From contig NZ_JAFSNZ010000023.1 in the NCBI RefSeq assembly GCF_017447225.1, positions 1-49,504 on the forward strand: a stretch of DNA of 49,504 bases. Reading direction: 5' to 3'. Numbering within the stretch: position 1 is the stretch's first letter; each line of letters opens with the position of its first letter. Below, in pieces: positions 39,026-42,764 of the stretch. Under the pieces are notes generated by a model. That model saw only the letters and a list, made by a program, of their open reading frames with translations, did not search any database and was not told where the DNA came from. Source of the DNA: Methanobrevibacter sp. GTDB taxonomy: Archaea > Methanobacteriota > Methanobacteria > Methanobacteriales > Methanobacteriaceae. A program made the translations under genes and the position numbers.

Positions 39026-39730
39026 CTAACTAATTCCACGAGAAGTAATTCGGAAAACGGCTTGCCGGCCTTCACCAATACTCCTATGGCGTTTTAAGGT
39101 TGCGATTCTCTGATTGGTCTCCTCACCACGTTCCAGTTGGATAATAACTTTACTCCAATATTGAAGAACCATTCCCCCAACAGCCCTAATATCATTATTA
39201 CCTTCATCATCAAATGCAGTATAAACCTGATTAGTTACAATAACTGCAATATCATAACTTCTTGCAATTTTAGATAATATACCCATCTGTTTACCCAATT
39301 CCTTGTTTAATTTGGATGATTTCATATCATCAACACGATAAAGAGCAACTGCAGAATCCAAAATAAACACGTCAGTGTCGGCATGGTTTTTTCTAAGCCA
39401 TAATTCAATAGCTCCTATGTTTTCACCCTGCTCCTGAAAGGAAGTCGGTTCGAAAACCATGATGTTATTAGCAACTTTAGAAAAGTCATTACCAGCAATT
39501 TGTTTAATCCTATCTATTGAAATTCCGCCTTCAGTATCAATGTAAATGGCTTTTTTTCCAGTTTTAGCCACAGTAACTGCCAGATATAGGGCCAAGTTAC
39601 TTTTACCTGAACTTGGCGGACCAAATATCTGAGTAACTGTACCTTTTTCGAATCCTCCATTTAACAGGTTATCAATACTTGAATTTGTAGGAATTTTAAG
39701 ATTATCCTCGAAATTAGCCAATACTTTCAT
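39026..39730 (-). CDS. radB: DNA repair/recombination protein RadB
   Basis: 234 residues, the RecA/RadA core without the RadA N-terminal helix-hairpin-helix domain. Walker A is IFGPPSSGKSNLALYLA near 35 and the Walker B region DVFILDSAVALYR near 118. The front NSSIDNLLNGGFEKGTVTQ is typical of RadB. It is an archaeal RadA paralogue that helps recombination. No ribosome site is obvious beyond a weak AAGTATTGTT; 55 bases separate it from the aminotransferase. Confidence 0.93.
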   Translation of the reverse strand: MKVLANFEDNLKIPTNSSIDNLLNGGFEKGTVTQIFGPPSSGKSNLALYLAVTVAKTGKKAIYIDTEGGISIDRIKQIAGNDFSKVANNIMVFEPTSFQEQGENIGAIELWLRKNHADTDVFILDSAVALYRVDDMKSSKLNKELGKQMGILSKIARSYDIAVIVTNQVYTAFDDEGNNDIRAVGGMVLQYWSKVIIQLERGEETNQRIATLKRHRSIGEGRQAVFRITSRGIS

Positions 39731-39842
39731 AACAATACTTTTGTTTTACTAGGTTATATAATTGACATCAGAAAGTTACCAAATCTTTATAAGCGGATTT
39801 TAATCAATGCATTAAACACCCCCGAAAAGAGGTGAAAAAATA

Positions 39843-40754
39843 ATGAAAAAGAAACTATTGATGTTATTCATATCAATTCTGGCAATCACATCATGCATTA
39901 CATTAGCATCTGCAGAAAACAGTACAAATGATTTAATCGCTAATGAAAACAACATTGGCGAAGATGAAAGTAAAAGAATTGGTGAAAAAGTAAAATCTGA
40001 AGAAGACGGATTTTCAAATATCGCATTCAGTGATGGATACAATGGCTTTTGTATCAATTTAGCTCAAAAAGAAGCATATGCAGGACAGGAATTTGAAGTG
40101 AAAAACACTTCAGCAGCTGTTAACAATAGAAATGGTGAAAAAATAGGTAATTACTTGAAAATATTGGTTGTAGATTATTATGATTACACAATTGAAAATC
40201 CCAGATTAGCACAGGACATAATCTGGAAATTCTCAGATAATTATAATGAATGTAACCATACAATAGTCAAAGGAATTATAGAATTAGCCGAATCAGGTAG
40301 AATCATTCCAGACCATGGCGAAGAAAAAATAATCAACGAAACAACCAAAGTAAAATTTGATTTTGAAGTTCTAGACTCTGTAAATTGGGCAACACAGAAT
40401 TTCTTTGGATATAAATTAACTTATTCAAATATCATTAATGAAGGAATTTTAGGAAATCCAAGTGAAGATAATGGAGATACTAATGAAAGTGAAATACCAG
40501 AAAACAACACAACACAAAACGAAACAATACCACAAAACAACACAACAACAGAAAATAAGCAGAATGAAACTTCAGAAGATAATTCTTCATTGATTAGCAT
40601 TCCTATGGATAATTCAACTAAAGAAAATGCAACTACCATAATAGAAGAAAATCCGAAAGAAGAAGTTTCAGTTGAAAATAAAACTGGAAATCCTTTAGTT
40701 ATGTTATTAATACTACTTGGAATAATAGGATTTTGCCCATTGAAAAGAGATTAA
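39843..40754 (+). CDS. Putative Cys-Gln thioester surface protein
   Basis: 303 residues. A signal peptide ends near residue 24 (LASA-EN). The mature N-terminal domain carries GYNGFCINLAQKEAYAG with Cys70, and RLAQDIIWKFSDN with Gln124. These two motifs are the mark of thioester domains (TQxA/TED family), where Cys and Gln form an internal thioester able to bind host surfaces covalently. A stalk rich in Asn/Thr/Glu (about 215-280), with many NxT/NxS sites, leads to a C-terminal helix and KRD, a membrane anchor. The ribosome site is AGAGGTGA. The match to the family is by motif only. Confidence 0.7.
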   Translation: MKKKLLMLFISILAITSCITLASAENSTNDLIANENNIGEDESKRIGEKVKSEEDGFSNIAFSDGYNGFCINLAQKEAYAGQEFEVKNTSAAVNNRNGEKIGNYLKILVVDYYDYTIENPRLAQDIIWKFSDNYNECNHTIVKGIIELAESGRIIPDHGEEKIINETTKVKFDFEVLDSVNWATQNFFGYKLTYSNIINEGILGNPSEDNGDTNESEIPENNTTQNETIPQNNTTTENKQNETSEDNSSLISIPMDNSTKENATTIIEENPKEEVSVENKTGNPLVMLLILLGIIGFCPLKRD

Positions 40755-40762
40755 TTCTCTTT

Positions 40763-41344
40763 TTATCTTCTTATAAATGTCGGTTGTGGTGTTGTCAAAT
40801 CAATAATAGTTGATGCATTTTTAGAATCCAAAGGCCCCACATCAATTACCAAATCAACATCACAACCCAATTGGTCCAAAATTTCTTCAGGTGTTGACAA
40901 TACATCTTCATCTGATAAATTAGCACTGGTTGTAGTGATTGGGAATAATGTTGCCAATTTGCATGCAATTTCATTTTTAGGCACCCTTACACCAACATGT
41001 TCCAAACCGCTTGTCACGACTCTCGGAACAACAGGAGATTTTTTTAGAATAAACGTGTAAGGTCCGGGCAAATATTTATCAATGGTATTTTTTTGGTAAA
41101 TTGATATTTTAGAAACCAAATTAATTGCATCCGTATCTGAAACTAAAATAGACAATGGTTTTAATAAGTTTCTTTGCTTGATTTTAAAAACCTGACGAAC
41201 CGCCTTATTATTGAAAATATTAGCGCCTAAACCATAGACAGTATCGGTTGGATACATAACAACCCCACCATTAGCTAATACATCTATAGCTTCATTAATT
41301 ACTTTTTCATCAGGAACAGAATTATCTGTTTTTAATATTTTCAT
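40763..41344 (-). CDS. Sua5/YrdC-type threonylcarbamoyl-AMP synthase
   Basis: 193 residues. GGVVMYPTDTVYGLGANIFN near 30 and KQRNLLKPLSILVSD near 77 are the YrdC signatures, followed by GPYTFILKKSP and TTSANLSDEDVLSTPEEIL. It makes threonylcarbamoyl-AMP for tRNA t6A37. It is the short YrdC form, without the extra Sua5 C-terminal domain. It ends eight bases from the convergent thioester gene. Confidence 0.92.
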   Translation of the reverse strand: MKILKTDNSVPDEKVINEAIDVLANGGVVMYPTDTVYGLGANIFNNKAVRQVFKIKQRNLLKPLSILVSDTDAINLVSKISIYQKNTIDKYLPGPYTFILKKSPVVPRVVTSGLEHVGVRVPKNEIACKLATLFPITTTSANLSDEDVLSTPEEILDQLGCDVDLVIDVGPLDSKNASTIIDLTTPQPTFIRR

Positions 41345-41971: not shown

Positions 41972-42219
41972 GTGATTTGGAAAGTGCGGAAAAAATAGCT
42001 AAAGATATTAAAAAATTAGAAAGAAACTTAAACCAAGTATCACATATCGAATTTACCGGAAAAGAAAAAGAAGTTTATGATAGGGCAGTTGACTACTGGA
42101 ATGATTCCAAATATTATCTTGAAAAGGAAGACATGAGAACTGCCTTTGGATGTATTGAATATTCCCATGGTTTGCTTGATGCTCTAAGAATTATCCATGA
42201 TACAATCGATGATTACTAA
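41968..42219 (+). CDS. DUF357 protein
   Basis: 83 residues, nearly all helical. The segment AVDYWNDSKYYLEKEDMRTAFGCIEYSHGLLDALR (about 41-75) is typical of DUF357, an archaeal helical-hairpin family. Function unknown; it is often next to the CDP-archaeol transferase, as here with an ATGA overlap. The stop overlaps the stop of the convergent secreted-protein gene by four bases. Confidence 0.85.
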   Translation: MSDLESAEKIAKDIKKLERNLNQVSHIEFTGKEKEVYDRAVDYWNDSKYYLEKEDMRTAFGCIEYSHGLLDALRIIHDTIDDY

Positions 42220-42764
42220 AAAAATGATTTAATGGATGAAATTAGGAAGTTTATAAAATTCCAACCCAAATCATCAACGACACTTAATTCCAATTCATCT
42301 GATACATTCAACAAATTAAGATTTATCATTAAACGGTTATTTTTTGCATATGCCAATATATCAATGATATTATTGCTGGAATCAATAGGAGAAGTATTTT
42401 TAAAGCCCTGATTCATTGTAAAGAAGGAATATTTATTATTTACATTAACATAATAATCTTTATATTCCACTGAAACATCAGCATAATTATTCATTAAAGC
42501 ATCGTCTGAAGACTTTAAAGACAATTCTGTAACTGGAGAGACAATGTTTACATTACCATTTGAAAATCCGGAAGAAGTGTTTGACTCCACATTACCTGCA
42601 AAAGAAATATTTTCATCAGAAACTAAGGAAATATCGTTATTTGGATTATCCTCAACAATTGTTTCATTATTCACATCATCTGCAGCACTTACGGAAGATA
42701 AGGAAAAAATCATCATGATTAAAAATATCCCCAATAAAGATAATTTAATGCTACTTATTTTCAT
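42216..42764 (-). CDS. Small secreted protein of unknown function
   Basis: 182 residues. Residues 1-27 form a strong signal peptide ending SSVSA-ADD, identical in style to the leaders of methanogen adhesin-like proteins. The mature part is Asn/Ser/Asp-rich, has no cysteines and no visible repeat, and ends NFINFLISSIKSFF, amphipathic. It is much shorter than adhesin-like proteins, so it could be a remnant or a dedicated small exoprotein. No homology recognised. Confidence 0.65.
   Translation of the reverse strand: MKISSIKLSLLGIFLIMMIFSLSSVSAADDVNNETIVEDNPNNDISLVSDENISFAGNVESNTSSGFSNGNVNIVSPVTELSLKSSDDALMNNYADVSVEYKDYYVNVNNKYSFFTMNQGFKNTSPIDSSNNIIDILAYAKNNRLMINLNLLNVSDELELSVVDDLGWNFINFLISSIKSFF

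Follow-up and report, generated by a model that had tools for sequence, protein, structure and literature searches.

A predicted surface protein of Methanobrevibacter sp. raises the question of whether a methanogenic archaeon possesses a thioester domain (TED) of the Gram-positive type and, if so, which residues would form the thioester. The stretch of DNA that was analyzed, here called the window, comprises 49,504 nucleotides. The sequence-only reading of this stretch had proposed a Cys-Gln thioester domain with a bond between Cys70, in a GFCIN motif, and Gln124, in an AQDIIW motif. The best explanation as a whole, to which we assign a probability of about 0.75, is a secreted, anchored protein with a TED whose predicted Cys70-Gln185 thioester would covalently join a target amine.

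Gene and protein anatomy

The open reading frame and the codons of both motifs were found exactly where they had been placed. The proposed signal peptide, N/T-rich stalk and membrane anchor were likewise recovered, as a hydrophobic N-terminus ending in ASA/EN, an N/E/T-rich stretch and a hydrophobic C-terminus. The features of the locus are:

39026..39730, - strand: RadB-like upstream neighbour (named by eye), adjoining the TED gene at 21 of the 24 loci from the same genus
39786..39793, + strand: putative TATA-box-like element TTTATAAG, spotted by eye
39829..39835, + strand: putative ribosome-binding-site-like GAGGTGA, spotted by eye, 7 bases 5' of the ATG
39843..40754, + strand: ORF of the thioester-domain surface protein, ATG start, 303 aa
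39843..39914, + strand: signal peptide, residues 1-24, assigned from the sequence, ending in LASA and followed by EN
39972..40442, + strand: TED, about residues 44-200, a folded domain of ~160 aa
40050..40052, + strand: Cys70, the predicted thioester Cys, in F-C-I-N (GFCIN)
40212..40214, + strand: Gln124 of the TQxxPhiW-type helix motif (AQDIIW), a non-thioester Gln
40395..40397, + strand: Gln185, the predicted thioester Gln, in T-Q-N-F-F (ATQNFFGYK)
40455..40685, + strand: low-complexity N/T/E-rich stalk, about residues 205-281, assigned from composition, with 11 N-X-S/T sequons
40680..40751, + strand: C-terminal KTGNP, hydrophobic segment and KRD, a sorting-signal-like anchor assigned from the sequence
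40763..41344, - strand: Sua5-like downstream neighbour (named by eye), seen at 17 of the 24 loci from the same genus, several contigs ending before it

At residue 24, the end of the signal peptide, Ala is aligned in 26 of 29 close homologues. The 76 stalk residues 206-281 comprise 14 N, 14 E and 12 T, and the DNA encoding the stalk contains weak tandem repeats at 40501-40550. No isopeptide or ester stalk domain was found by Pfam in the window protein. At the C-terminus, 22 of the 24 homologues that are complete have TG ahead of the membrane segment, and the other two have AG. The arrangement of TG(N), membrane segment and K/R at 40680-40751 resembles a sorting signal; the source genome contains one sortase-family gene (G000:C26:20779-21096, E 5.8e-15). 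Further downstream in the window, a 182-aa secreted-looking protein is encoded on the - strand at 42216-42764; it had no Pfam or NCBIfam match of weight.

The fold and its relatives

An AlphaFold2 model was computed from the window domain and 29 homologues (model residue n is protein residue n+26, so that model 44 is Cys70). The mean pLDDT was 87.9, with values mostly between 85 and 98 in the core, and the pTM was 0.82. The model matches the TED fold of PF08341, which is characterized by a beta-barrel and a three-helix bundle. In a VIA-align comparison, the 11 best PDB entries were all Gram-positive TEDs, with Z scores of 7.4-9.8 and rmsd values of 3.1-6.7 A over 123-143 residues, and the next, unrelated entry followed at Z 2.8; this list is a re-alignment of Foldseek's own matches and cannot exclude other folds. 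The entries belong to Cpa (4bug, 2xi9, 2xid, 4c0z), CpTIE (5a0g, 5a0d), FNE (5dcq), SfbI (5a0l), PnTIE (5a0n), BaTIE (6fwv) and EfmTIE86 (6fwy). The PDB title of 5dcq is silent on the domain, which we take to be a TED. Foldseek against the PDB gave a probability of 1.00 for only three chains, all of them CpTIE-TED 5a0d (E 1.5e-3 to 2.4e-3), at TM scores of just 0.40-0.44, and the remaining matches were listed at a probability of 0.12 or less. A BFVD search yielded no match under E 0.001. The identity of the window domain to the solved TEDs is 10-16%.

The relationship is difficult to detect from a single sequence. Searches of Pfam, NCBIfam and the PDB with the window protein alone gave no TED, NCBIfam or PDB match; the Pfam TED model did not match it at E 10, and the sole Pfam line (E 0.48) fell in the low-complexity stalk. 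The HMM search that had been suggested as a check thus gave no match for the protein itself. Its relatives exceeded the curated cut-off of PF08341 in 16 of 138 family genomes versus 0 of 14 controls, and those over the cut-off include close homologues from 7 genomes (e.g. G083:C65, G098:C26). When 22 relatives were scanned with Pfam, the TED model was found in 15, at best with only 4.1e-5, and an unrelated Tudor model matched 8 of the 22, down to 8e-5. The best PF08341 match of all (L034, G068:C41:3721-4098, 2.4e-9) was set aside; its contig looked bacterial by eye and is probably a contamination.

A profile of 23 diverse members (A3) had a single match among all PDB sequences at E values up to 10, namely 4c0z (E 0.0047), the N-terminal TED of Cpa from Streptococcus pyogenes; a less diverse profile (A1) had no match in the PDB sequences. 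In the HMMER alignment, YC, TQNAIW and FQNL of Cpa stand opposite Cys70, AQDIIW (TQxxPhiW) and Gln185-Asn (TQNF) of the family, respectively. The four invariant columns of A3 are not independent evidence, because its members were picked from domains that already had the Cys and the Gln. Taken together, the fold, the profile match to the Cpa TED and the relatives over Pfam's TED cut-off show that the domain is a thioester domain.

With the class I TEDs (Cpa/Spy0125, SfbI, CpTIE and PnTIE; PF08341), the window protein shares the fold, an early-strand Cys, the TQxxPhiW-type helix, a last-strand Gln, a signal peptide and a surface anchor. However, it comes from a methanogenic archaeon, its Cys and Gln are spaced by 115 residues, compared with 129-153 in those four proteins, the region of helix alpha-0 spans only about one turn in the model, and an isopeptide stalk is absent. 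The class II TEDs (BaTIE, SaTIE and EfmTIE86) resemble it in the head-lobe fold (6fwv, Z 8.8; 6fwy, Z 7.7), but the window model lacks their beta-sandwich insert of ~75 residues, with ~7 residues linking helix 114-124 to strand 132-137. As judged on the predicted model, in which 63-65 form a helix of three residues and 125-131 a short linker, the domain appears to be devoid of either class-defining indel, i.e. helix alpha-0 of class I and the beta-sandwich insert of class II. The alpha-2-macroglobulin/TEP-type thioester proteins of archaea (PMC8416519) also form a thioester from Cys and Gln, but their thioester domain is alpha-helical with a CxEQ motif, and fold and motif are unrelated; CxEQ is absent from the window protein, in which C-I-N-L stands at Cys70.

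The probable glutamine partner of Cys70

In TEDs of known structure, the TQxxPhiW Gln is part of a helix, forms a hydrogen bond to the Cys backbone and has been described as dispensable by mutation (PMC4450167; PMC6194298). The two residues that form the thioester lie in strands: the Cys belongs to a [YFL]C-hydrophobic-hydrophilic motif, and the Gln, on the last strand, to a weak motif, PhiQzPhiPhi (PMC4450167; PMC6194298). The window domain contains all three motifs. Cys70, in F-C-I-N, ends model strand 41-44 (model 44) and is conserved in all 29 close homologues; as TED motifs also recur in distant homologues, the motif exceeds chance. AQDIIW, with A replacing T, places Gln124 (model 98) on helix 94-105. 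A third motif, ATQNFFGYK, which the sequence-only reading had passed over, contains Gln185 (model 159) just before the last strand 161-170. This Gln is found in 28 of 28 close homologues reaching that position, aligns with the QN of the Cpa TED and is the better-conserved partner of Cys70; the residue preceding it is Thr and thus non-hydrophobic, unlike in the weak consensus.

The ends of the VIA alignments place model residue 167 at residue 275 of 5a0g, 255 of 5a0n and 583 of 4bug, 2xi9 and 2xid, and model residue 168 at residue 276 of 5a0d. Counting back 8 or 9 residues, if the last strand is ungapped, leads from Gln185 to Gln267 of CpTIE (5a0g, 5a0d), Gln247 of PnTIE and Gln575 of Cpa; for SfbI (5a0l) it leads to residue 262, one off Gln261. 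These four glutamines are the published thioester glutamines (PMC4450167; PMC4282584).

The residues were then read across the family. Among 97 distinct domains (100 before removal of three fragments of the pseudogene L030), both Cys70 and Gln185 were present in 66, neither in 23, and Cys together with Ser in place of Gln185 in 4, while 4 could not be judged. A larger set of 146 distinct domains was reduced to 143 by taking out short and nested ones, and to 136 by leaving out 7 of the 143 with gaps at Cys70 or Gln185; 101 of these had both residues, 29 neither, 5 the Cys alone and 1 the Gln alone. The tandem paralogue L008 counts as Cys/Ser in the smaller set and as Cys/Gln in the larger one, owing to an alignment shift, and L035, L036, L043 and L145, which come from other Methanobacteriaceae genera, were left out of the counts. 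Where a lineage has kept one of the two residues, it has nearly always kept the other as well, at identities down to 22%, while neighbouring positions vary.

Trees were built without the columns in question. The least numbers of changes were 4 for the Cys, 2 for Gln185 and 8 for Gln124 on the 97-row tree, and 7, 6 and 13, respectively, on the 142-row tree. On the former, Gln185 was lost once at the base of a 26-row clade, within which the Cys was lost later, as if the Cys was no longer needed once Gln185 had gone; this order is our reading, because the tree is unrooted. On the 142-row tree, four independent contrasts lie on well-supported branches; Gln185 follows the Cys in 2.1 of them on average and never opposes it, which is not significant for co-variation in a sign test with four contrasts.

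It was therefore Gln124, and not the assignment to the TED class, that did not hold from the original proposal. Gln124 does belong to a motif conserved in most TEDs (PMC4450167), and its position is occupied by Q in 20 of 29 close homologues, with S in the other 9. A bond between Cys70 and Gln124 is nevertheless hardly credible: the published TEDs bond via the last-strand Gln and do not need the TQxxPhiW Gln (mutational data in PMC4450167), among the 108 domains with Cys70, Gln124 is absent from 55 and present in 53, residues including S, H, T, R, K and E replace it in many members retaining Cys70, and its at least 13 changes on the 142-row tree compare with 6 of Gln185. The Cys70/Gln124 pair had been the one counted initially (38 of 97 domains with both, 34 with Cys and without Gln124) and was dropped, the published thioester Gln being the last-strand Gln. 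The predicted structure gives the fold of a TED with Cys70 at a strand end and Gln124 in a helix, and formation of a thioester between Cys70 and Gln185 is, by analogy with the solved domains, very probable.

Distribution, paralogues and possible function

With the TED domain as query, a match at E 0.01 was obtained in 64 of 138 family genomes. Profile A3 at E 1e-6 matched 72 of 151 genomes of the phylum and 47 of the 91 of good quality, in 4 of 20 genera that all belong to one family; the 72 include domains without the Cys and Gln, and the residues were read in 61 genomes. At least 52 Methanobacteriaceae genomes encode a domain with both residues (of the 61 read, 52 had both, 5 were gapped and 4 lacked them). 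The 40 named loci comprise 38 from Methanobrevibacter, 1 from Methanosphaera and 1 from Clostridiales. The conserved RadB-like and Sua5-like neighbours of the window gene indicate a stable locus, and not a passing adhesin.

Large Methanobrevibacter relatives join the TED to DUF11/DUF7507 (CLIPPER) domains, which are predicted isopeptide domains, and in this respect resemble the TIE proteins with their thioester, isopeptide and ester stalks. Their TED, however, often follows a beta-helix region and is not N-terminal, and the window protein has only its low-complexity stalk. All 12 large relatives scanned with Pfam contained DUF11, and most also DUF7507 and beta-helix or Chlam_PMP (L084, L085, L086, L096, L097, L103, L106, L112, L117, L123, L135 and L137). 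DUF11 and DUF7507 have been described as CLIPPER isopeptide domains, and partner domains of the archaeal ones are reported to be rarely recognised (PMC12617251). One of these loci, L103 (G084:C32), has three consecutive large adhesin ORFs with one TED apiece. In addition, L035, L036, L043 and L145, from other genera of the Methanobacteriaceae, encode large proteins matched by PF08341; these show a CID...AIQxAIWYFT pattern and form a second archaeal TED-like group. The family also resembles the Methanobrevibacter adhesin-like proteins (ALPs), which are N/T-rich, secreted and anchored, and the large relatives have beta-helix and Ig-like parts; in contrast, a survey of ALP domains in M. smithii and M. 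stadtmanae from 2024 does not include a thioester domain (0 occurrences of 'thioester').

On the Clostridiales contig (L068, GC 50-59%), the TED is 35% identical to the query in the best segment and forms a long branch amid methanogen rows on the 97-row tree; its PDB matches were insignificant (E 0.5-1.6). The protein has Ig-like repeats and a VPQTGD motif with a membrane tail, and its gene is followed by one for an LPMTG-containing, pilin-like protein (identified by eye) and by a sortase gene. This neighbourhood ties the methanogen family to the classical Gram-positive setting.

As proposed here, the protein would be secreted and anchored to the membrane or wall, displaying a minimal TED at the outer end of a flexible, glycosylatable stalk. 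After folding, Cys70 would attack the side chain of Gln185 with release of ammonia, leaving a strained, buried thioester. On docking, an amine of the target, probably of a lysine, would attack the thioester, yielding an isopeptide bond to Gln185 and thereby holding the cell covalently; candidate targets are a rumen bacterium, a protozoan, the host or the cell's own envelope. Such chemistry is established for SfbI and a lysine of fibrinogen (PMC4450167). By this analogy, we slightly favour a covalent reaction with an outside amine, and find it plausible that the protein attaches to a host or partner.

Two other explanations retain the fold and differ in the chemistry. The TED might serve as a non-covalent binding or spacer domain, with Cys70 and Gln185 conserved for packing. 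The paralogues of the 26-row clade, which lack the Gln and mostly also the Cys, speak for this: the model of one Cys-less member keeps the TED fold (five TED entries at Z 7.0-8.7, the next at 2.9). In this member, Ser126, which is invariant in 15 aligned rows, takes the place of CpTIE Gln267 and SfbI Gln261 in the count back from the aligned ends. Because some paralogues lose both residues and keep the fold, the fold is no proof of the chemistry; moreover, the thioester was reported to add little stability in Cpa (PMC4282584). The joint retention of both residues over large distances amid variable neighbours nevertheless renders a purely non-covalent role decidedly improbable. Alternatively, the thioester might form and react with the cell's own envelope, i.e. 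a pseudomurein lysine or an adjacent surface protein, and thus serve anchoring or cross-linking and not partner binding. Unlike accessory adhesins, the gene has a conserved place beside the RadB-like gene, and several loci contain a tandem TED-fold paralogue that could be an acceptor. However, the protein is already provided with an anchor of the membrane or sorting type, and the Gram-positive TEDs of known ligand are described as binding outside targets (PMC4450167), so that we regard an envelope target as unlikely.

A wider, tentative proposal, for which we see somewhat less than an even chance, is that gut methanogens of the Methanobacteriaceae possess a large family of covalent adhesins that lock onto partner microbes or host surfaces. 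Its short members would be stalked TEDs encoded at a fixed locus, and its giant members, joining a TED to isopeptide domains, would be the counterparts of the Gram-positive TIE proteins, with the Cys/Gln-less paralogues as non-covalent versions, and the domain would probably have been exchanged with gut Firmicutes. TEDs were described as exclusive to Gram-positive bacteria by Walden et al. (PMC4450167), and a search of the open-licence literature gave no report of a Gram-positive-type TED family in archaea, PMC8416519 covering the unrelated alpha-2-macroglobulin type. Since some archaeal members are already recognised by the Pfam model, the TED label may exist in databases. If the proposal is true, rumen and gut methanogens would have a covalent grip on their partners, from a domain with both reactive residues, and part of the many adhesin-like proteins so far without a function would be explained. 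Covalent attachment to hydrogen-producing partners would also bear on rumen methane.

Several paralogues deserve mention on their own. Pseudo-TEDs of ~400-480 aa ('GFILDYS...SDYFAYK', L069-L082) lack both thioester residues, and a model of one retains the TED fold. An upstream tandem paralogue with the TED signature, in which Ser replaces Gln185 and the Cys is often missing, occurs at L007, L008, L011, L019, L020, L026 and L107, and is possibly a partner gene. The pseudogene L030 (G046:C36:9486-9950) is a decayed copy with five internal TGA codons and one TAG. At L008 (G077:C28), the anchor-coding end lies in a different frame after the stalk repeats, which may reflect a repeat-length frameshift, phase variation or an assembly error.
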